Source: Deltaproteobacteria bacterium (GTDB taxonomy: Bacteria; Desulfobacterota; Binatia; Binatales; Binataceae). From it: a DNA stretch of 36,276 nucleotides. The notes under the pieces were generated by a model. It saw only the letters and a list, made by a program, of their open reading frames with translations, ran no database searches and was not told the DNA's origin. The position numbers were made by a program, and so were the translations under genes. The stretch spans positions 72,352 to 108,627 of the forward strand of contig JAJYYI010000120.1 of the NCBI GenBank assembly GCA_021801125.1. The letters are read 5' to 3'. This document shows positions 3,001 through 28,242 of the stretch, piece by piece. The first letter of the stretch is position 1; each line of letters begins with the position of its first letter.

Positions 3001-3010
3001 CCGCATCTAG
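2..3010 (+). CDS. Multi-PAS hybrid sensor histidine kinase (5' end outside window)
   Basis: Two-component sensor that autophosphorylates on histidine and relays to its own receiver. The frame is open from base 2, and the first codons read as hydrophobic membrane sequence, so the true start is probably left of the window; a TTG at 23 is the first possible start inside it. Counting from that TTG: two hydrophobic stretches (about 4-18 and 24-40), three PAS domains (about 80-190, 200-315, 325-440), a HisKA domain with SHEIRTPLN (phospho-His about 466), an HATPase domain with N box (IGNAIKF, about 581), DTGIGIP and GSGLGLAIS, then two receiver-like domains. The first receiver (about 703-827) lacks the usual acidic pair (VLLAGSSSS) but keeps D758 and K810. 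The second (about 849-970) is intact, with LAEDS and phospho-Asp about 899 in LVLMDMQMP. The stimulus is unknown. The gene reads away from the leftward block that follows. Confidence 0.93.
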   Translation, partial: WNGRWQALVNLAAISFVAAAQGFSFYPPESGWSHLWITVLAAIGLSQANTANPWRYRRTAFGRAARLPKGGWAPSAGAASRWLVNSSLEGLFSTLSEDGAICSLSPWAVTALGHTPEEIAGIRVDDLIHPDDLQRAREAFVHALQTPYEATFLEFRFRHKDGSWRELETALQVTHDVFWNKRVLVFARDVTERRQAERKLAESEARFREIFATSLDVILIVRMRDQRIIDANPAFTQLSGFTTDQARGWTPLQLNLWANLGHREAFYAELDSKGFVHNLEILVRSKNGARVPVLCSAVKTQCDGEPCLIVFVHDIAHLKRVEAELRAGEAKFRQVFDSSLDAIIVADFDHGKFVAVNEEFLRAAGVTRNEVLGRTAQELGIWVNPRERTLFARALRIHGCVRNFEATFKGKDGVAAVHLLNARVVELDGVRHVILVSREVSQLKRVERELIEAREHALAASKAKSDFLSSMSHEIRTPLNAILGTTELLGESALSIEQRRYLSVLRANGSALLDLINGVLELAKIESRHLSLARVDVDLAELVDTVMRALALRAHEKNLELVGHIAPDTPLHLLGDPSRLRQVLTNLIGNAIKFTEHGEIVLSVEPEQITEADTVLRFSVKDTGIGIPADKLDDIFCAFTQGHLSSASKYDGSGLGLAISKHLVEAMGGRIWASSEPGEGSAFYFTAKFELQAPASEAEASAAPVVKREAKVLLAGSSSSSASAISEKLSSLGVKGEVVADSEQVLRRLTSEAGRGEPYLLVLLDAQQMGNAAFELAGQIKKKLGASQRVVIMLASHSLADDLSKARDLGVDACLVKPLSASELADAVRAALNGTKPAPAPAPKLALPSCNGVQPMRILLAEDSNDNRLVIEAFLRDTAHQVDVAEDGATAVKRFKKGNYDLVLMDMQMPVMDGYTATQIIRKWERDQGRPPCRILALTAHALRNETEKSLAAGCDAYLTKPISKATLRQVVNEAAAQLKEAHKLSPRSSMAFDKTPDRDRI

Positions 3011-3023
3011 CGGCGCTTGCCGC
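3010..3023 (+). terminator. Weak hairpin at kinase stop codon
   Basis: GCGGC, loop GCTT, GCCGC begins on the last base of the kinase stop codon. There is no run of T after it, so it is at best a weak or factor-dependent terminator. Confidence 0.25.
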
Positions 3024-3133
3024 TTAACACGGCGCGTTATGACGGCGCGTGCAGCGCGCTTTGAGAATCTCGTGGCGCCGCGGCGGCGTCCGCCTGATTA
3101 TTGCCGGCTAAACGGGCTACGCTTCGCCTGCTC

Positions 3134-3397
3134 TCAGCTTCTGGGGCGCGAGGCGGGAGCGCCTTTGCCGGAAATTGTCCCTAGCTGCCGCTCGACTTCG
3201 CCTTCGTTGGGAAAGCGGCCCACCTGATGCTTGGAGAAGATTGGCGTGCCATCGACGACGACGTCGAACTGACCGATCTGGCCCGGCGTGATTTTTACTT
3301 CAATGCCGAAACGCGAACGAATCGACGCGGCCAAACCGACCGCGCGCGGCTTGTACCCTCAACTCCCGCAGTAAAAAATCTCGATCTTCGCCGTCAT
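3134..3397 (-). CDS. Probable SelW-like (Rdx family) selenoprotein with in-frame TGA as Sec
   Basis: Small thioredoxin-fold redox protein of the SelW/SelT/SelH (Rdx) family, 87 residues if TGA is read as selenocysteine. Reading leftward from ATG at 3397, the frame gives MTAKIEIFYCGS, TGA at 3361-3359, then GYKPRAVGLAASIRSRFGI. It continues through the family signature ITPGQIGQFDVVVDGTPIFSK and GRFPNEGEV to a TGA stop at 3136-3134. The CGSU motif inside YCGxUGYK is that of SelW, and the length fits. After the TGA the mRNA can fold into a 7-bp stem (CAAGCCG with CGGUUUG, one G-U pair) with loop CGCGCGGU, placed about where a bacterial SECIS would lie. A standard gene caller would start at the TTG at 3334 and lose the active site. 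It follows the arginine decarboxylase on the same strand. selA, selB and selC are not in the window, so Sec decoding is inferred. Confidence 0.75.
3332..3361 (-). promoter_or_regulatory. Candidate bacterial SECIS hairpin
   Basis: It starts at the in-frame TGA on the minus strand. Five bases after the TGA, CAAGCCG pairs with CGGUUUG around an 8-base loop that ends in GGU. Bacterial SECIS elements are short hairpins just 3' of the Sec codon with G/U in the loop. The pairing is seen in the sequence; the function is inferred. Confidence 0.5.
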
Positions 3398-3543: not shown

Positions 3544-4107
3544 CTAGCGTCCGGCAGGCAACTCCACGAAGACCGCCGCCGCAACCACCGAGGTCCACAG
3601 ACCGTCACGGTCGCCTATGGCTGACTGCGTAATATTGCGCGTCGAGACAATCTTATCAGAAAGCCGCCAGATGTCCTTGCGCGCGTCGTAGCCGACATTG
3701 GGATCGAAGTCGACGCCAAGGATTGTGGCAAGCATCATCGCCGCGAGGTCTTCGGCGTAATCGCCCGCTTTCTGGTCGGTCTCGCCGAAGCTATGGTGCT
3801 CGGACAAGTAGCCGTATTGGCTGCTGTTGGCGGGAATGGCCAAGCCCACTGATGCCGCGATCAGACGATGAGGCTCGTTCGTCGAGTTGTCGCTGGTGAC
3901 AGTGAAGACGACCTGACCGGGACTCAGATATTTAAGCCCCTCTTGGGCGCTTATCAGCTTGCAAAACGGGGGGAAGATCGAGCTGACTCGCACCAGATTG
4001 AATTCCGCAATCCGCGCGTCGCGAAGCGCTAGCTCGAAAGAGTTCAGTTTTTCGCGGTGTTTTCCAACCCCTTTGGTCAAAAAGCAACCCGTAGGCCTTG
4101 GACCCAT
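3544..4107 (-). CDS. Pyruvoyl-dependent arginine decarboxylase (PvlArgDC)
   Basis: Converts arginine to agmatine and CO2 for polyamine synthesis. Enzymes of this family (PF01862) are made as proenzymes that cleave themselves between two serines, turning the second serine into a pyruvoyl group. The 187-residue length is normal. The N-terminal part carries TGCFLTKGVGKHREKLNSFE, followed by NLVRVSSIFPP, so cleavage is expected between S42 and S43. Later blocks AASVGLAIP, GYLSEHHSFGE and YAEDLAAMMLAT are also typical. The ATG at 4107 is preceded by GGCGGA at a workable distance. It reads the same way as the methylmalonyl-CoA mutase upstream (163-bp gap) and the selenoprotein downstream (146-bp gap), so it could share a transcript with either. 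Nothing in the sequence links it to propionate metabolism. Confidence 0.92.
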   Translation of the reverse strand: MGPRPTGCFLTKGVGKHREKLNSFELALRDARIAEFNLVRVSSIFPPFCKLISAQEGLKYLSPGQVVFTVTSDNSTNEPHRLIAASVGLAIPANSSQYGYLSEHHSFGETDQKAGDYAEDLAAMMLATILGVDFDPNVGYDARKDIWRLSDKIVSTRNITQSAIGDRDGLWTSVVAAAVFVELPAGR

Positions 4108-19596: not shown

Positions 19597-20562
19597 TTAA
19601 ACAGAACTCGCCCATGGGAGAGAGCATGCCGCCTCGAAAGGCAGGGCGGCGCTCATGCCAAGCATCACGCCAAGGAGCGAGTCCGCACCGGAGCTGGCTC
19701 CCCATGCAAGCGCGTCGGAGACCTCCTTTCGCAACCAGCGGCTATCCGCGCGCGCAAGGGCGATAACCAGTCGATGCAACCGGGCGCTGAATTCAAGCCT
19801 TGCCGCGTGCGACAGCAGCGCTTGGGCCACTTGCGTGGTGCGGTGCGGCTCAAGACCCGTGATCGTCCGCGCCAACTTAAGCGCCGACGGGTGGCCGACC
19901 CCCGCCAGTCCGGCGAGCATCCCGACGATGAGATCGTCGCCCGACGGAGTCAATCCCACTCCTAAGCCGATCAGTTCGGCGGCCGCTCTCCTCATTTTTC
20001 GCGGGTTTTCGTCGCGGCAGGCCTCAAGCAGCGCCAACGCGTTTTTGAACCCGCTCAGGGACCATTGAGGCATGGAGCCGCCGCCTGAATTGACAGCCGG
20101 GGTGCCCATAGACTGAATGATCCTTCCGAAACCGTCGCCCGCAACCTCCGATCCGGCTGCCTCAACGGCGATAGCAAGACGGTTGCGCAGCGCGGATAAT
20201 CCGCCGTCAAGATTGCACACGCCAAGCCTGGGATTCCAAAGCGCAGCCTGACGCAGGTCGAAGCTCACCACGGGCGCACCCAACACAACAACCGCCCCGT
20301 GCCGGCAGACGACTTGCCGTCTCGCGTCGAGGAGCGGAAGAACCTTCTTTAGCGGCGCAACTAGCGAATTTGGGAAGAGGCCCAGCGACCGTTCCAGGAT
20401 GGAGATCGTTCGGTTATCCCACCTAAGATTGACCGCGCGGCTGAACACGCTTTCGACAACGCCGACGCTCTGCCTGGAGCGCAGAAACTCCATCACTGGC
20501 GCACTAACGACTCGAACCATTACGGGTGACGTAGTCGCGGCCGCTTCTCGTCGAGGCGCCAT
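19597..20562 (-). CDS. allH: DUF2877 protein, AllH-like carbamoyltransferase subunit
   Basis: Homologue of E. coli YlbF, now called AllH, one of three proteins (AllF, AllG, AllH) of oxamate carbamoyltransferase in anaerobic allantoin use. It has 321 residues. The DUF2877 signature GLGVGLTPSGDDLIVGMLAG near residue 200 is clear, with VVSFDLRQAALWNPRLG and SSGADSLLGVMLG also family-like. Start ATG 20562 has no ribosome-binding site; internal ATGs at codon 15 or 24 are possible. It lies 130 bp after the sigma-54 activator on the same strand, and so is separated from its presumed partners DUF1116 and FdrA, which run the other way from the shared intergenic region. The DUF2877 assignment is firm; participation in a carbamoyltransferase is inferred from the neighbours. 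Confidence 0.85.
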   Translation of the reverse strand: MAPRREAAATTSPVMVRVVSAPVMEFLRSRQSVGVVESVFSRAVNLRWDNRTISILERSLGLFPNSLVAPLKKVLPLLDARRQVVCRHGAVVVLGAPVVSFDLRQAALWNPRLGVCNLDGGLSALRNRLAIAVEAAGSEVAGDGFGRIIQSMGTPAVNSGGGSMPQWSLSGFKNALALLEACRDENPRKMRRAAAELIGLGVGLTPSGDDLIVGMLAGLAGVGHPSALKLARTITGLEPHRTTQVAQALLSHAARLEFSARLHRLVIALARADSRWLRKEVSDALAWGASSGADSLLGVMLGMSAALPFEAACSLPWASSV

Positions 20563-20692
20563 AAATTTACAAATGCGCGCTATGCGGTGAAGATGGAAAC
20601 GAAAACGTCATCTCCGCGGTGAGCCCGCGCCCTTTCCACTTACAGCCGGGCGCTATGGCCGACGGCGCGCAGCGAGCCGGCGCGCTACGCCG

Positions 20693-22342
20693 TCATGCCG
20701 GGTCGACGACGTTGCGCCTTGATTGGGCCGGCGCTTGGTGCTTAGGACGCGGGTTGAGGTTGAGCTTTTTGATTCGCGCGCACAGCGTGGTGGGCTTCAT
20801 TCCGAGTAGCGCGGCTGCGCCCTTGGGGCCGTAAATTCGTCCTTCGCATTGAGCGAGTGCCGCGATTATATTTTCGCGCTCGAGCCGCTTGATCTCGTAT
20901 TGGGTCCGCACATTGGTTGCGCAATCCGCCGCTTCTCGCAATTCTTTCGGGCTTTCCTTCTCGGCTTCGTAGGCTTCGCCAAGTTCAAGGCAAAGCGACC
21001 CGGACGCGGCCGATATTACGCTGCGGTTGATTACGTTTTGGAGTTCGCGCACGTTTCCGGGCCAATGATACGCGTGAAGCCGTCCAAGGTCGTCGTCGGT
21101 GAAATCGAGGCCCGTGCGATGGAAGCGCTGTGAGGCGATCGCCAGGAAGTGCCTCGCCAGCAAAGGGATGTCTTCGCGCCTTTCGCGCAAGGGCGGCACC
21201 TCGATCGGAAACACGCTGAGGCGATAATATAAGTCCTGGCGAAACTGTCCGCTGCGCGCCAGCGCCTTCAGGTCGCGGCTTGTGGCCCCGATGATCCTGA
21301 CGTTGACTCGACGCGTTTTGGCGTCGCCCACCGGCTCGAATTCGCCTTCTTGAAGGACGCGCAATAGCTTCGGTTGCATTTCGGCGGGTAGTTCACCCAC
21401 CTCGTCAAGGAAGAGCGTGCCACCATCGGCGAGTTGAAAACGGCCGACTCGGTTGGCGAAAGCGCCGCTAAAGGCTCCTTTGACGTGGCCGAAAAACTCG
21501 CTCTCGAAAAGTTCGCGGGGAATCGCGGTACAGTTCACCTTTACCAACGGCCTATCGCGCCGCGGGCTTCGCCCGTGGATCGCGCGAGCCACCAGTTCCT
21601 TGCCGACGCCTGATTCCCCGAGGACCAACACGGTCGCGTCGGTCGGGGCTACAATCTCAACTTGCTCAAACACGTGGCGAATTGCCGCGCTTTGGCCAAG
21701 GATTGTCCCGGAGAAGGCGGTTGCGGCGTGGACCTGGTCGCGTAGGTAGGCATTTTCAAGTTCCAGGCGACGCCGCAAATCCTCAATCTCCTCGAAAGCT
21801 CGTGAGTTCGCGATCGCCACCGCCGCCTGCATCGCAAACACTCGAAGCCAACCTAGAGCGCTCTCGTCCAACTCAGAGCGACTGAACACCGCAAGAACGC
21901 CCAAGGTTTCGCCGCGAAAGATTAAAGGCTGGCCCGCAAAACTGCGGATTTTCTCCCCCAAAGCCCAATCCGGTTTCCACACCCATCCCTTCTCATCCTC
22001 GATACGCTTGATAAGCAGAGGCTGCCCGGTCGCTCCGACCCACCCGACCTTCGCCTTGTTCAAAGGAAACCGAGAAAAATCGCCGTTGAGCCGACTCCAA
22101 TCCTCGTGCCCAGACAGAGCATGACCTTGGCTCGCGACCAGGTGAAGACATCGCGCCCGCTCAAAGCAGGTGGTCTGCCACCGGCAACGCTCGCAGATAT
22201 CGCCCGGACCGAAAAGCCAAACGCGGGCGAGAGCGATTCCTTTTTGCGACGCCAGTCCTTCGACTATGTGCTTTAGGACGAGTTCGAGAGAGCGCTCTTG
22301 TGCCGCAGCTACAGCAACCGCTTGAAGGGTCTCGGGAGTCAT
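20693..22342 (-). CDS. Sigma-54-dependent activator (GAF, AAA+, Fis-type HTH)
   Basis: Enhancer-binding protein that drives RNA polymerase-sigma54 open-complex formation. From ATG 22342 (a TTG lies three codons earlier) it has 549 residues: GAF sensor domain about 10-185; AAA+ domain about 205-440 with Walker A GESGVGKE (242-249), the sigma-54 contact loop as GAFSGA (289-294) instead of GAFTGA, Walker B GTLFLDEVGE (308-317) and HWPGNVRELQN; and a Fis-like helix-turn-helix about 485-530 (IIAALAQCEGRIYGPKGAAALLGMKPTTLCARIKKL). The GAF domain holds four cysteines, CERCRWQTTC and ERARC (C-x2-C-x5-C-x5-C), which could bind metal or a cluster. It is divergent from a gene set with a sigma-54 promoter, so it is almost surely that operon's regulator. 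Nit1C clusters are described with a similar activator, NitA. Confidence 0.94.
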   Translation of the reverse strand: MTPETLQAVAVAAAQERSLELVLKHIVEGLASQKGIALARVWLFGPGDICERCRWQTTCFERARCLHLVASQGHALSGHEDWSRLNGDFSRFPLNKAKVGWVGATGQPLLIKRIEDEKGWVWKPDWALGEKIRSFAGQPLIFRGETLGVLAVFSRSELDESALGWLRVFAMQAAVAIANSRAFEEIEDLRRRLELENAYLRDQVHAATAFSGTILGQSAAIRHVFEQVEIVAPTDATVLVLGESGVGKELVARAIHGRSPRRDRPLVKVNCTAIPRELFESEFFGHVKGAFSGAFANRVGRFQLADGGTLFLDEVGELPAEMQPKLLRVLQEGEFEPVGDAKTRRVNVRIIGATSRDLKALARSGQFRQDLYYRLSVFPIEVPPLRERREDIPLLARHFLAIASQRFHRTGLDFTDDDLGRLHAYHWPGNVRELQNVINRSVISAASGSLCLELGEAYEAEKESPKELREAADCATNVRTQYEIKRLERENIIAALAQCEGRIYGPKGAAALLGMKPTTLCARIKKLNLNPRPKHQAPAQSRRNVVDPA

Positions 22343-22377
22343 AGAACTCAAATTCTACTGACGCTCAAATAGTTATT

Positions 22378-22405
22378 GCAACAAAAAATTGTTGCTGCGC
22401 AACAA
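22378..22405. promoter_or_regulatory. Upstream activator site: three GCAACAA half-sites
   Basis: GCAACAA at 22378-22384, its inverse TTGTTGC at 22389-22395, and GCAACAA again at 22399-22405. They form two overlapping perfect dyads with 4- and 3-base spacers. The array lies roughly 120-145 bases upstream of the expected start from the sigma-54 promoter, the usual place for an enhancer, and close to the activator gene's own start, so it may also autoregulate. Confidence 0.7.
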
Positions 22406-22498
22406 AAAGTCATTTGCTTAAGCGACGTGCGATCACAATTTTGTGGACCGGCATGGGAAATAGTCGAATTTACAAGTGAATCAGCATTTTTTTTACGC

Positions 22499-22512
22499 GG
22501 CACTATTCTTGC
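22499..22512 (+). promoter_or_regulatory. Sigma-54 (-24/-12) promoter
   Basis: GGCAC, 5 bases (TATTC), TTGC. The GG and GC doublets are exactly 10 bases apart, as required, matching TGGCAC-N5-TTGC except the first T. Transcription should start near 22523-22524, about 80 bases before the DUF1116 gene. An IHF-like patch at 22479-22491 is one base off consensus. Confidence 0.82.
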
Positions 22513-22604
22513 GTGAAAACACCGCGTTGGCCAGAGGCCTCGTCGAATCAAGTTATTGCTCTGGCTAGTCGCCGGCGGTCAGCGCCATTGCTCTAAGCTT
22601 CGGC

Positions 22605-23990
22605 GTGACTGTTTTCTCATTTGGGGATTCTGTCCGGGGGCGGGAATCGGAAGGTCTCAAAGGGTTCCTGTCGCTTGAGGAAAGGGAAGACGGTGCGAAA
22701 GTGCTAGCCGAAGCACCATCAGCATCGAAGTTCTTGAGCGAACAAGTCGTACGCGGCAATTTGGTCGCGATCGACCGCGTCTGTTCAGTGGAACCGATCG
22801 TGGTCGATGTAGCCAAGGCGCTGGACGTCGTTCCAGGAATGAGGCGGGATCTCTTGCTGCACGCCGGTCCGCCGATTTCCTACGAGCGTGCGTGCGGCCC
22901 GCTGAGGAGAGCGCTTGGCGGCGCGCTGGTGTTCGAGGGGTTGGCCGCCACTCTAGACGAAGCGGAGCAGCTCCTTGCGTCCGGCAGAGTCAAACTTTCC
23001 CCTTGCCACCATCACGACGCGGTGGGACCGATGACCGGCGTTATCTCGCCCTCGATGCCGGTGCTGGTTACGGAAGATCGAAACTCGGGAAAAAGGGCCT
23101 ATAGCACTTTCAACGAAGGTGGAGGAAACGCGCTGTGGCTCGGGGTTTTTGAGCGCGACACTCTGGAGCGGCTTTGCTGGATTCGGGACATCCTGGCGCC
23201 GGTGTTGAAGGCTGTCTTCAAAGCCGCCGGAGGCGTGCCTGTTTGGACTATCCTGGCGCAAGGGCTTCAGATGGGTGATGAGTGCCACAACCGCCATGCG
23301 GCCTCCACCAATATCTTTTTGAAGAGCATTACCGAGCATCTGTTCCTGGCAAGTCTGCCCAGAGATACCGCCCTTGCGGCCTATCGATATATCAGCGGCA
23401 ATAGTCACTTCTTCCTTAATATGACGATGTCCGCCTGCAAACTCGCGATGGACGCCGCGAACGACGTTCCTTACTCCACTATGGTTACTGCAATGGCCAG
23501 AAACGGAACTGACTTCGGGATACGTGTAAGCGCATTGGGCGGCAAATGGTTCATCGCTCCGGCCCCGCATCTAAAGGACGCGCTCTACAACCCGGGCTAC
23601 GGACCGGATGACGGGGCGCCGGATATAGGCGACAGCGCGATCATCGAGACGATGGGCCTGGGCGGGTTCGTGATCGCCGCCGCGCCCGCTATGGCGGCGA
23701 TCGCCGGCGGGGGTCTTGAGCAGGCGCTTTCCATCTCGCGACGTATGGGCCTGATAACGCTCGCGAAGAACGTGCGTTTTCCGATTCCGACCCTCGATTT
23801 CGAAGGCAGTCCAATGGGAATCGACGTTCGCCGAGTAATCGACTCCGGCATCGTTCCGAGTATCGACAGCGCCGTGGTTCATAAACAGGGTGGGATCGGA
23901 CAGATCGGAGTGGGAATCGCCAGGGCGCCGTACGAATGTTTCGGAGCAGCGTTAGAAGCTTTTGTCTCCAAGGTGGATCGCCGTTCTTAG
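22605..23990 (+). CDS. allG: DUF1116 protein, AllG-like carbamoyltransferase subunit
   Basis: Homologue of E. coli YlbE/AllG, a subunit of oxamate carbamoyltransferase. It has 461 residues, about 40 more than E. coli. Family blocks: VDVAKALDVVPGMRRDLLLHAGPPI (about 68-91), LSPCHHHDAVGPMTGVISPSMP (about 131-152), AYSTFNEGGGNA, MGDECHNRHAAS, NGTDFGIRVSALGGKWF, GDSAIIETMGLGG, MGIDVRRVIDSGI and HKQGGIGQIGVGIARAP. The CHHHD and MGDECHNR segments are rich in possible metal or phosphate ligands. The extra 45-50 N-terminal residues (MTVFSFGDSVRG and on) are not part of the core. The start GTG 22605 has no strong ribosome-binding site, so a later start is possible. It is the first gene after the sigma-54 promoter, and FdrA follows 28 bases after its stop. 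Confidence 0.88.
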   Translation: MTVFSFGDSVRGRESEGLKGFLSLEEREDGAKVLAEAPSASKFLSEQVVRGNLVAIDRVCSVEPIVVDVAKALDVVPGMRRDLLLHAGPPISYERACGPLRRALGGALVFEGLAATLDEAEQLLASGRVKLSPCHHHDAVGPMTGVISPSMPVLVTEDRNSGKRAYSTFNEGGGNALWLGVFERDTLERLCWIRDILAPVLKAVFKAAGGVPVWTILAQGLQMGDECHNRHAASTNIFLKSITEHLFLASLPRDTALAAYRYISGNSHFFLNMTMSACKLAMDAANDVPYSTMVTAMARNGTDFGIRVSALGGKWFIAPAPHLKDALYNPGYGPDDGAPDIGDSAIIETMGLGGFVIAAAPAMAAIAGGGLEQALSISRRMGLITLAKNVRFPIPTLDFEGSPMGIDVRRVIDSGIVPSIDSAVVHKQGGIGQIGVGIARAPYECFGAALEAFVSKVDRRS

Positions 23991-24018
23991 AGCCGCGCTC
24001 GCAAGGTTATTGGGTGTG

Positions 24019-25650
24019 ATGAAGTCGGTCACAATCATCAGGGTTAGACGCAACTTTTACCAGGACTCCCTACGGCTCATGCAGATCTCGCGGCGGCTGC
24101 GCGAGCTCGCGGGGGTTGTAACCGCATCCGCCGTGATGGCCACCGATGCAAACCTGAAGATGCTTGGGGCGCAGCGACTCCTTTCCGAGGACGTCGGCGC
24201 TCTCGGGCCTAATGACCTCTTGGTTACGATCGAAGCTGATAGCCGGGAAAACGCCGATCGAGCGGCCGAAACAATAGATTTGTTGGAAGCCTCACCTATC
24301 GCGACGAGCCACGGCGCGGATGATTTCGAATCACTCGACGCTGCGGCCGTCGCGCTTCGTGCGCCGAACCTTGCTCTCGTTTCGGTTCCAGGCATGTATG
24401 CGAAGATCGAGGTTGCCAAGGCGATCGAGCGAGGGATGCACACGTTTCTTTTCAGCGACAACGTTCCGGTCGAGGAAGAAATCGAGCTAAAAGAGCGAGC
24501 GGCCTCGCGAGATCTGCTCGTGATGGGTCCGGAATGCGGGACCGCGATAATCAACGGCGTCGGGCTCGGATTTGCCAACGTCGTGCGCCGCGGTCCCGTG
24601 GGGATTGTCGCCGCCGCGGGAACGGGTCTGCAGGAGGTAGCGTCACTTATCCACCGCGGCGGCGCAGGCATATCGCACGCGATCGGGATCGGCGGCCGCG
24701 ATCTCTCCCGAAGCGTAGGAGGGATCATGGCGGCGCAAGCTCTGAGGCTTTTGCTGCGCGATTCCTCAACGCGAGTCGTCCTCCTGGTTTCAAAGCCGCC
24801 CGACGATAGCGTGGCGCGAAATATAGTAAGCCTCCTTTTGGCGGCGGATAAGCCTGCGGTTGTTTGCTTTGTCGGCAAGACCATGAAATCGCCCGCGCCC
24901 GAGCGGTTGCATTTTAGCGCCACACTCCACGACGCGGCGCAAAAAGCGGTCGAGCTACTGGGATATAGAAACCATCTTGGCGATCTGTCGCCCGACGGAT
25001 CGATCTGGCGCTCCCGCGCCCAAAAGCTCGCGAAGGCGCTCGCGCCCAGGCAGCGTTATGTCCGGGGCTTATTCTCGGGAGGGACGCTGTGCTACGAGGC
25101 TCAACACGTGCTGTGGCAACGAGTACGTCCCGTATACTCGAACGCTCCGCTTTTTGGGGGAAACAAGCTGGACGATCCAAACCGCAGCCGTGGCCACTGC
25201 GTCGTCGATTTGGGGCATGAAGAATTCACACATTCGCGTCTCCATCCGATGATCGATTCGAGTATGCGTGCCGAGCGACTGCTAAAAGAAGCGATCGATC
25301 CAACTGTCGCCGTGATTTTATTCGACATCGTGCTCGGTTACGTGGCGGCTCCGGACCCGGCCGGCGACCTGGTTGCTGCGATCAAAGAGGCGACGATCAC
25401 CGGCAGCAGGCGAGGCCGGAAAGTGGCTTTCGTAGCTCACGTCTGCGGCACGGACGAGGATCCGCAGAATCTCACCGCCCAAGAGGAGAAACTTGAGAGC
25501 GCCGGTGTGCTGGTGCTGGCAACAAATGCTCTGGCCGCCGAAACGGCCGCATGGATTGCGACGCGAGGCGCGGCGAGCATCGCTTCATCGACGAACAAAT
25601 ACGCGCGGGTCGCGCGCAAACAGCGCCAAGCGAAGTCTCAGATTCACTAA
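24019..25650 (+). CDS. fdrA: FdrA, AllF-like carbamoyltransferase subunit
   Basis: Homologue of E. coli FdrA/AllF, a protein built on the succinyl-CoA-ligase fold that works with AllG and AllH. From ATG 24019 it has 543 residues (the frame opens earlier, inside DUF1116). The N-terminal module (1-90) has VRRNFYQDSLRLMQISRRL and ASAVMATDANLKML. The CoA-ligase-like core has LALVSVPGMYAKIEVAKAIE, FSDNVPVEEEIELKERA, LLVMGPECGTAIINGVGLGFAN, GIVAAAGTGLQEVASLIHRGG and IGIGGRDLSRSVGG. The second half has GLFSGGTLCYEAQ, VDLGHEEFTHSRLHPMID and a last block ending LATNALAAETAAWIAT. The protein stops soon afterwards, without the tail (INAGL...F...W.P.AGGN..L..LL) with which E. coli FdrA ends as I recall it; that tail occurs in the mini-FdrA at 34606-35055. 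Confidence 0.9.
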   Translation: MKSVTIIRVRRNFYQDSLRLMQISRRLRELAGVVTASAVMATDANLKMLGAQRLLSEDVGALGPNDLLVTIEADSRENADRAAETIDLLEASPIATSHGADDFESLDAAAVALRAPNLALVSVPGMYAKIEVAKAIERGMHTFLFSDNVPVEEEIELKERAASRDLLVMGPECGTAIINGVGLGFANVVRRGPVGIVAAAGTGLQEVASLIHRGGAGISHAIGIGGRDLSRSVGGIMAAQALRLLLRDSSTRVVLLVSKPPDDSVARNIVSLLLAADKPAVVCFVGKTMKSPAPERLHFSATLHDAAQKAVELLGYRNHLGDLSPDGSIWRSRAQKLAKALAPRQRYVRGLFSGGTLCYEAQHVLWQRVRPVYSNAPLFGGNKLDDPNRSRGHCVVDLGHEEFTHSRLHPMIDSSMRAERLLKEAIDPTVAVILFDIVLGYVAAPDPAGDLVAAIKEATITGSRRGRKVAFVAHVCGTDEDPQNLTAQEEKLESAGVLVLATNALAAETAAWIATRGAASIASSTNKYARVARKQRQAKSQIH

Positions 25651-25720
25651 TCGGCCGTTATCTATTCGCCTGAAAAAAAGTGAAATCGGTGAGTAATTAA
25701 AGAATTGTCAGGGCAGCAAT

Positions 25721-26200
25721 ATGACGTTCACTGTTGGGAACATCTGGTTTAAAGTCGCCGAGAGCGAGTGGGAACTCGAGGCCTATTTCAATCTGCGACG
25801 CTGCGTATTCGTCGAAGAGCAGAAAGCGTTCGCAAGCTCTGACGTCGACGAGTATGACGACGGCGCGCTGCATCTGGTGGCCGTCGAAGAAGATAGTGGA
25901 AAAGTCGTCGGCGGAGTGCGCTGCTATCGGAAGGAAGGCGATCTGTGGTTCGGCGGCAGGCTTTGCGTAGAGCAACAGTATCGGGCGTCGCACGTCGGCT
26001 CGAACCTAGTCAGATTGGCGGTGGCGTCGGTCAAAGCCGCCGGATGCAAACAGTTCCTTGCCTACATTCAAACTCAGAACGTTCGCTTTTTTGAAAAGCG
26101 CGGCTGGCACAGCCTTGGAGCCCCGATCATGTACCACGGTTTCCTCCATCAGTTGATGGAAGCGGACCTGGCGACGGCTGAAGCGACGATGAGCGTGTGA
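25721..26200 (+). CDS. GNAT acetyltransferase, MSMEG_0567/Sll0786 (NitE) type
   Basis: 159-residue acetyl-CoA-dependent N-acyltransferase resembling the nitrogen-starvation GNAT of Nit1C clusters. It has the start FTVGNIWFKVAESEWELEAYFNLRRCVFVEEQKAF, the acetyl-CoA-binding region GGRLCVEQQYRASHVGSNLVRLAV (about 85-110), and the end LAYIQTQNVRFFEKRGWHSLGAPIMYHGFLHQLME, which matches the family closely. The acyl acceptor is unknown; in other Nit1C clusters this gene always sits next to the AIR-synthase-like gene, as here. ATG 25721 has GGG in TCAGGGCAGC upstream. The stop codon overlaps the next gene's ATG (TGATG), so the two are translationally coupled. The 70 bases after fdrA show no terminator, so it is likely transcribed from the sigma-54 promoter. 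Confidence 0.85.
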   Translation: MTFTVGNIWFKVAESEWELEAYFNLRRCVFVEEQKAFASSDVDEYDDGALHLVAVEEDSGKVVGGVRCYRKEGDLWFGGRLCVEQQYRASHVGSNLVRLAVASVKAAGCKQFLAYIQTQNVRFFEKRGWHSLGAPIMYHGFLHQLMEADLATAEATMSV

Positions 26201-27189
26201 TGGGAATCGACGAGCTGATTTCCAGGCTTCGAGGCTCGCTCTGGCTAACGCAGAAGAGGGAGCTGCAACGCTTGTGGCGAGTGCTACCCCAGACCTGCAA
26301 CGTAGACGGTGAAGAGGTATTGATCGGCGATGACGCTGCGGCGCTCAGAACCGCGGATGGTTATTTACTTCTGGCTGCAGAAGGGGTGTATCCGCCGCTG
26401 CTTGAAAGCGATCCGTATATGGCCGGGCGCGCCTCCGTACTTGCCAACGTAAATGACATTTACGCCATGGGAGGCAGGCCGACGGCGATATTGGACGTTC
26501 TTTTCAGTCGGGACGACGACGAGGCCGAGTTGGTGCTCAAGGGAATCCAGGATAACGCGGCCCGCTATAAGGTGCCGGTGTTAGGCGGTCACCTTAGCCC
26601 AGGCGCGGAAGGCTCCGCGCTGTCGGTTTTCATCTTGGGGAAAGGCCGTGCCTTGCTGTCGTCGTTTAATGCGCTGCCGGGCGATCAGTTGGTCTTCGTT
26701 TTCGCGTCCGAGGGGCGTTTCTTGAACGGATACAAGTTCTGGGATAGCTCCAGCCGGCTCCCAGATCATCAGGTGTTGGAACAACTGGAGCTGCTGCCGC
26801 GTGTGGCCGAGGAAGGCCTCGCCGACACTGCCAAAGACGTCAGCATGGCAGGACTCATCGGGACCGCCTTGATGTTGCTGGAAGGTTCGGGAGTCGGCGC
26901 CGAGATCGACTTGGAAAAAGTGCCCCGCCCATCCGAAGGCCCGCTTGAACATTGGTTGCTGACTTTCCCAAGCTTCGGATTCTTGTTGTCGCTTAGATCG
27001 GCCTCCGCTCCAAGAGTTCGCGCGCTGTTTAGGGGCGCGGGACTGACGTGCGAGACGATTGGCGAGGTGACGAAGGACCGCCGCGTTTTTTTTGTCAGCC
27101 CGGCCGGTGCCCGGAAGCTCTTTTGGGATTTCAACGATTCTTCGTTGGTCGGAATAACGCCCAGACCGGGTACGCCTGGGCGGAACTGA
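26200..27189 (+). CDS. AIR-synthase-like protein, Sll0787/NitF type
   Basis: 329-residue member of the PurM/ThiL/SelD/HypE superfamily, ATP-dependent enzymes that activate amides or phosphorylate. The superfamily metal/ATP motif is IGDDAAALRTADGYLLLAAEG (about 42-62), followed by DPYMAGRASVLANVNDIYAMGGRPTAILDV with the conserved Asn and Asp, VLGGHLSPGAEGSALSVFILG, and the second-half TAKDVSMAGLIGTALMLLEGSGVGAEIDLEKVP and FPSFGFLLSL. This pattern fits the sll0787-like family of Nit1C clusters. The true substrate is unknown. GTG 26197 is an alternative start one codon earlier; the ATG overlapping the GNAT stop is favoured. Carbamate kinase follows 27 bases downstream. Confidence 0.85.
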   Translation: MGIDELISRLRGSLWLTQKRELQRLWRVLPQTCNVDGEEVLIGDDAAALRTADGYLLLAAEGVYPPLLESDPYMAGRASVLANVNDIYAMGGRPTAILDVLFSRDDDEAELVLKGIQDNAARYKVPVLGGHLSPGAEGSALSVFILGKGRALLSSFNALPGDQLVFVFASEGRFLNGYKFWDSSSRLPDHQVLEQLELLPRVAEEGLADTAKDVSMAGLIGTALMLLEGSGVGAEIDLEKVPRPSEGPLEHWLLTFPSFGFLLSLRSASAPRVRALFRGAGLTCETIGEVTKDRRVFFVSPAGARKLFWDFNDSSLVGITPRPGTPGRN

Positions 27190-27216
27190 GGCGGTCGAGA
27201 CCATTATCGCGACCTG

Positions 27217-28242
27217 TTGGAGGACGCTTTCGGAAGGAAGTTTGTTCGCGTCGCGTCAGCAAGAGGCTTCGAACCTACGAAACTAGAAGCGAACAAGAGA
27301 GCGGATCGAGTCGCAGTTTTCGCGCTGGGCGGCAACGCGATCGCGGGTAAGGACGGCAACGGTAGCCACGAGCTGCAGTTAGGAGAAGTGCGCCGTATTT
27401 GTGCAGGAATCCTGGGTGTCCTTAAGCAGGGTTACAGCCTGGTTATTACCCATGGAAACGGACCACAAGTGGGTAATCTGTTGATCCAACAAGAGAGCGC
27501 GCCCGAGATAGTTCCGCCGATGCCCCTCGATGTATGCGGCGCTATGACCCAGGGTCAAATCGGTTATGCGCTTTCACAGAGCCTGCGAAACATGCTCCGT
27601 GAAAGCGCTATCGAAAAAGAGGTGATCGCCGTGATGACTCAGGTGGTTGTAGACCCCGATGATGCGGCGTTCACGAATCCCACCAAGTTCGTGGGGCCCT
27701 TTTTTTCCAAAGAAGAGGCCTGCGCGTTGATTGAAGACAGGGGTTGGGAGATGAAAGAAGACCTGGGCCGGGGATGGCGCCGAGTCGTCCCTAGCCCGCG
27801 GCCCGTCGAGGTTGTCGAGCAGAGCGCAATTGCAAAGTTGGTCGCCGGCGATTGCGTCGTGATAGCGGGAGGTGGCGGCGGAATTCCTGTGCGTCGCGAC
27901 GAGCGAGGCTCTCTCACGGGAGTTCCGGCGGTTATCGATAAGGATTTCGCCGCGCAGACACTGGCTAACTCCATCGGCGCCCAGCTTCTAATCTTCGTTA
28001 CCCCGATTCGCCGGGTATCGCTGTTCTTTGGAACAGAGCAACAGGAAGATATTGCCACTATGACCGCCGACGAAGCGTTCGCTCACTATCAAGCCGGTCA
28101 TTTTCCACCAGGAAGCATGGGGCCCAAGATCGCCGCCGCGATCCACTTTCTGCGGGCCGGAGGGCAACGAGTCGTGATCGCCAGTAGTGAGACGCTCGCC
28201 GCCGGCTTTTCCGGAGAAGAGGGGACGCAGATAGTCCCTTGA
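27217..28242 (+). CDS. arcC: Carbamate kinase
   Basis: Uses ADP and carbamoyl phosphate to make ATP and carbamate, which breaks down to ammonia and CO2. It has 341 residues. Family motifs are intact: VAVFALGGNAI (about 32-42), VITHGNGPQVGNLLIQQE, GYALSQSLRN, GWRRVVPSPRPVEVVE, VIAGGGGGIPV, VIDKDFAAQTLA and GSMGPKIAAAIHFL. The family normally starts right at the ALGGNA strand. Here about 30 residues precede it, no ATG, GTG or TTG occurs between TTG 27217 and the core, and no clear ribosome-binding site precedes that TTG, so the start is uncertain. In the allantoin pathway a carbamate kinase (AllK) is the partner of AllFGH, so its place between these genes strongly supports carbamoyl phosphate as an intermediate. 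Confidence 0.92.
   Translation: MEDAFGRKFVRVASARGFEPTKLEANKRADRVAVFALGGNAIAGKDGNGSHELQLGEVRRICAGILGVLKQGYSLVITHGNGPQVGNLLIQQESAPEIVPPMPLDVCGAMTQGQIGYALSQSLRNMLRESAIEKEVIAVMTQVVVDPDDAAFTNPTKFVGPFFSKEEACALIEDRGWEMKEDLGRGWRRVVPSPRPVEVVEQSAIAKLVAGDCVVIAGGGGGIPVRRDERGSLTGVPAVIDKDFAAQTLANSIGAQLLIFVTPIRRVSLFFGTEQQEDIATMTADEAFAHYQAGHFPPGSMGPKIAAAIHFLRAGGQRVVIASSETLAAGFSGEEGTQIVP

Follow-up and report, generated by a model that had tools for sequence, protein, structure and literature searches.

The locus described here raises the question of whether a TGA that interrupts a short reading frame acts as a stop codon or encodes selenocysteine. It lies in a window of 36,276 nucleotides, the whole stretch of DNA that was analysed, where a preliminary description had proposed an unannotated SelW-like selenoprotein gene. 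Our analysis indicates that this is almost certainly the gene of a selenoprotein of the SelW-like kind, with its redox centre in a CxxU motif, and that its UGA would be read as selenocysteine through SelB and a stem-loop located behind it (Table 1).

Table 1. Positions of the selenoprotein locus and its neighbour within the window
Feature	Position	Strand	Details
SelW-like (Rdx family) selenoprotein gene, predicted	3134..3397	minus	87 residues, Sec = residue 13, terminal TGA 3136-3134
Predicted selenocysteine UGA, in frame	3359..3361	minus	motif C-G-S-U
Putative bacterial SECIS stem-loop	3326..3344	minus	7 bp stem 3344-3338/3332-3326, loop GGUUU 3337-3333
Pyruvoyl-dependent arginine decarboxylase gene	3544..4107	minus	directly upstream of selenoprotein gene; Pfam PvlArgDC E 4.6e-59

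A reading frame that continues across a TGA

The frame opens on the minus strand with ATG 3397-3395 as start codon and reaches the in-frame TGA at 3361-3359. Under the ordinary code, the mechanical list of open reading frames yields only a headless fragment of 66 amino acids (3134..3334, from TTG 3334), just as the preliminary description had expected of standard gene calling. Read through, the frame gives a product of 87 amino acids, MTAKIEIFYCGS-U-GYKPRAVGL..., which carries the YCGS before the TGA and the GYK after it that had been taken as signs of a SelW active site. The Pfam Rdx domain covers residues 4-71 of this product (E 9.4e-18, 64.6 bits against a cut-off of 22.6), so that a single domain takes in the sequence on either side of the TGA, and the earlier claim of a single Rdx-family protein across the codon holds. 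A search of the host genome with the Rdx profile recovers the gene with 57.2 bits and one TGA inside the match.

The Rdx family has a thioredoxin-like fold. The read-through protein also matches TIGR02174 (CXXU_selWTH) with 53.8 bits against a cut-off of 34.2. Like Epsilonproteobacterial SelW, it fits the profile NF041051 (SelTWH_Campy) over positions 1-69 of 70 (E 3.5e-23), but its 81.6 bits fall under the equivalog cut-off of 88 and it is not filed there. Among solved Rdx proteins, eight distinct sequences, including 2npb (Selenoprotein W), 2fa8, and 2ljk, are matched at E 7.4e-8 to 1.1e-3 by a query carrying C at the Sec position; unlike the window protein, 2ljk and 2fa8 have Cys there. We infer that the read-through protein most likely acts as a small thiol/selenol oxidoreductase.

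The conservation of the TGA was followed in 57 genomes, 35 of them from the same family (G000-G034). Rdx matches occur in 37 of the 57, with 38 matches in total, and 31 of the 35 family genomes hold a SelW-like gene, one match each. When all 31 genes were read, each had the TGA at the identical codon, a conserved downstream frame, and an ATG 10-12 codons ahead of the TGA; the ordinary stop or frameshift in close relatives that would have spoken against a selenoprotein was seen in none of them. These family genes bear on the reading in which translation starts at TTG 3334 and yields the 66-residue fragment, without the redox centre, as the true product. That fragment is the open reading frame found by the mechanical caller, but it begins inside the Rdx domain, and the conserved stretch before the TGA, with its ATG in 31/31 family genes, makes this reading extremely improbable.

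Outside the family, six genomes contribute seven Rdx matches, of which three have TGA and four have Cys. The Cys homologues that the preliminary description had suggested looking for therefore do occur among more distant members of the class (4 of the 38 matches), with TGC or TGT at the Sec codon. A separate scan of named-species genomes, belonging to several phyla by their titles, found TGA in 22 of 22 relatives; three of these (L055-L057) match family genomes already counted and were excluded from the SECIS counts below. One relative from Planctomycetota (L069, positions 3001-3225) has TGA at both motif positions, giving HUTSU where related sequences have HCTSU, and this may be either a UxxU protein or a TGC-to-TGA error. 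The plasmid records searched gave a single weak match, with 35.6% identity.

SelW-like CxxU proteins are described as established bacterial selenoproteins that belong to the commonest ones in marine metagenomes: they are the largest family in the Sargasso Sea set with 48 genes, and the GOS set holds 427 of their CxxU sequences (PMC1088965, PMC2398784). Genes for SelW of Epsilonproteobacteria are reported to have been completely missed in annotation (PMC4607533). The window gene, which a plain open reading frame caller truncates, is thus an additional SelW-like protein of an already established bacterial type. It represents a well-supported selenoprotein in 16 of the 17 sampled genera of one family, and leaves the understanding of selenocysteine decoding unchanged.

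The hairpin behind the TGA

The preliminary description had also pointed to a 7-bp hairpin with GGU at its loop end after the TGA. The hairpin is present with all seven pairs, starting 14 nt after the TGA; with the T of TGA as 0, positions 17-23 pair with 29-35 around a loop at 24-28. Folded alone, however, it does no better than shuffled sequence: the 42 nt from the in-frame TGA give a z of -0.91, with 36 of 200 dinucleotide shuffles as good, and the control of 42 nt from the terminal TGA is more extreme (z -1.51, 17 of 200). The hairpin of the single sequence is therefore weak evidence. Comparison lifts it above chance: when the window's own gene was recoded synonymously 2000 times, 1.3% of the recodings folded equally well, and the homologous genes point the same way.

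Homologous genes were compared with their synonymous recodings; the test is a limited one, since a single codon usage, taken from 12 window open reading frames, served for every species. Of the 217 pairs that the 31 family genes could form, 199 are present, against 162.3 (sd 4.5) after recoding, and the hairpin energies sum to -402.2 against -244.8 (sd 16.0); none of 300 recodings did as well on either measure. The same holds for 21 distinct sequences from other taxa, where 129 of the 147 pairs are present against a null of 99.1 (0/300). In the four Cys genes the hairpin is absent, with 10 of 28 pairs formed against a null of 11.2, a value reached by 246 of 300 recodings. The loop GU is found in all 52 distinct Sec sequences (31/31 in the family and 21/21 elsewhere) and in none of the four Cys homologues.

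Covariation was assessed on 50 of the 51 distinct 42-nt sequences, against 500 shuffles and six slid registers. In the proposed register 90.0% of the cells are paired, above all 500 shuffles (75.2%) and the slid registers (26.9-50.6%). Cells changed on both sides number 43, against a shuffled mean of 15.0 (0/500 reach 43), and the covariation score is 0.376 against a shuffled 0.133 (0/500); both values also exceed those of every slid register. Double changes in five of the seven pairs are reached by 29 of 500 shuffles and are not striking on their own, and the 12 further pair types (13/500) are not strongly so. The outermost pair of the stem is poor, being unpaired in 21 of the 50 sequences, and the hairpin of the same-genus homologue in G001 keeps only five of seven pairs, with 59% of its recodings folding equally well. 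The serine codon in the loop is AGT in all 28 family genes having Ser there, a codon that accounts for 3 of the 135 serines in the more downstream part of these genes and for 32 of 368 in the window open reading frames.

Taken together, these comparisons support a hairpin that behaves as a bacterial SECIS, with a fixed register, a covarying stem, and a GU loop. Bacterial SECIS elements are described as stem-loops just downstream of the UGA with a G in a small apical loop (PMC1088965, PMC4607533), and an apical hairpin of 5/6 bp whose G is invariant is reported as well, a hairpin of this kind being the known core of such elements in bacteria (PMC4607533). The same data weigh on the reading of the gene as a pseudogene, or of the TGA as a sequencing or assembly error in a gene with Cys (TGC/TGT). 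The window comes from a draft of 150 contigs and Cys homologues do occur in the class (4/38 matches), but a TGA at the same codon with a conserved downstream frame in 31 of 31 family genomes, and a hairpin that covaries and is missing from the four Cys homologues, leave next to no probability for such a defect.

A covariance model of the hairpin recovers it in its own genome with E 3.4e-12, although the model was built partly from the window sequence. Three other weak matches in the genome were read and none is selenoprotein-like; the best (E 0.003) lies within an open frame with no in-frame TGA ahead of the hairpin. At another of the three, L090, the TGA has a TAA six codons behind it. At the TGA of selD (see below) the model found no hairpin, which indicates that it is specific to the SelW-like gene family and silent on other selenoproteins of the genome. 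No Rfam family reports the hairpin: the four matches up to E 10 are all far under their gathering scores.

Selenocysteine machinery and its loss in two relatives

The preliminary description had made its proposal dependent on the selenocysteine machinery, and the complete set is found in the host assembly, a draft of 3.5 Mb in 150 contigs that is 96% complete. The selA gene is split into two fragments at contig ends (model positions 1-166 and 165-366), selB scores 381.9 bits against a cut-off of 242.25, and the tRNA-Sec gene, with anticodon TCA, scores 68.8 bits against a gathering score of 47. The selD gene (381.8 bits, cut-off 125) adjoins selB on contig C30 (L020) and contains an in-frame TGA of its own, in the motif CKAAGUAGK, so that it is predicted to be a second selenoprotein of this genome. 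Within the window, an AIR-synthase-related protein encoded at 26197-27189 on the plus strand weakly matches the selD model; with 60.6 bits, under the cut-off of 125, it was rejected as selD.

In the proposed mechanism, SelB carrying Sec-tRNA(Sec) would bind the stem-loop just after the UGA, with its apical GU, and selenocysteine would be inserted at the UGA instead of termination.

The distribution of these genes within the family offers a natural test, in which exactly the SelW-like gene is gone from two relatives that have neither SelA nor SelB. Three family genomes have no selB match. One of them, G006, is 53% complete and does carry the TGA-bearing SelW-like gene. The other two, G027 (97% complete) and G032 (96% complete), gave no Rdx, selA, or selB match. 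Their best tRNA-Sec matches score 50.1 and 43.7 bits, respectively, against 70.1-74.3 in G016, G034, and G003. The 50.1 bits of G027 exceed the gathering score of 47; since G016 has a 50.1-bit match as well, beside its 74.3-bit one, the weaker match is probably another tRNA.

Aligned against the corresponding stretch of G016, of the same genus (L096 and L097 against L099), the stretches of G027 and G032 are 92-96% identical and continuous, except for about 701-1051 of L099. The missing piece takes in the whole selenoprotein gene (738-1040), and the frame of the neighbouring decarboxylase ends before it, at 677. A tblastn search for a remnant of the selenoprotein gene at the deletion site found none in either genome. 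As judged from these alignments, the selenoprotein gene was cleanly deleted and is co-lost with selA and selB.

On the other side, two further family genomes, G003 and G012, have selA and selB and no Rdx match. In G003 another frame follows the decarboxylase. G012 also lacks the decarboxylase and a tRNA-Sec match of the 70-bit class (best 48.9), and with both of these missing an assembly gap is possible.

The co-loss in G027 and G032 also addresses the reading in which the UGA does not stand for selenocysteine and is decoded as Trp or simply passed by near-cognate read-through. An open frame alone does not name the residue inserted, but in alignments with Rdx proteins residue 13 stands at their second redox Cys, the genome holds the set for selenocysteine, TGA serves as the true stop of the window gene and of many relatives, and the two relatives without selA and selB are also without the SelW-like gene. 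Decoding as Trp or ordinary read-through is highly improbable, and insertion of selenocysteine is the preferred reading.

The gene shares four sequence-level features with SelW-like selenoproteins: an Rdx domain spanning the UGA, a Sec codon for the second redox residue of CxxC/CxxU, a putative SECIS, and the presence of SelA, SelB, SelD, and tRNA-Sec. It is like the known bacterial members (Rdx, PF10262; TIGR02174) in its CxxU motif, its Rdx domain, and a SECIS directly after the UGA. It is unlike them in its lineage and in its arginine decarboxylase neighbour; no mechanistic difference was seen. Our literature search found no paper joining Binatota, to which the host may belong, with a selenoprotein.

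The arginine decarboxylase neighbour and other genes of the window

Of the 31 genomes that have the selenoprotein gene, 26 carry the decarboxylase next to it on the same strand by match coordinates; these represent 14 of 16 genera. In genus g4 (G004, G018, and G028) the two genes lie on different contigs, and genus g10 (G010 and G023) has the selenoprotein and no decarboxylase match. With tblastn, the decarboxylase was found at 22 of the 26 family loci examined and at none of the 21 Sec-gene loci outside the family. A functional unit of both proteins in this bacterial family, for example for redox upkeep of the decarboxylase or of polyamine metabolism, could be imagined, yet we regard it as unlikely. 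Against an obligate partnership stand the retention of the decarboxylase in the two genomes whose selenoprotein gene was deleted (G027 and G032), the missing decarboxylase match in g10, and the separate contigs in g4. A more modest reading of the linkage would be co-transcription. No paper joining a pyruvoyl-dependent arginine decarboxylase with a selenoprotein was found in the literature search.

Elsewhere in the window, positions 19597-28242 hold AllH- and AllG-like (oxamate carbamoyltransferase) genes, near which are found genes for a sigma-54 activator, a protein with a CoA-ligase domain, and a protein of the amino-acid-kinase family. This region is an allantoin/oxamate-like cluster.
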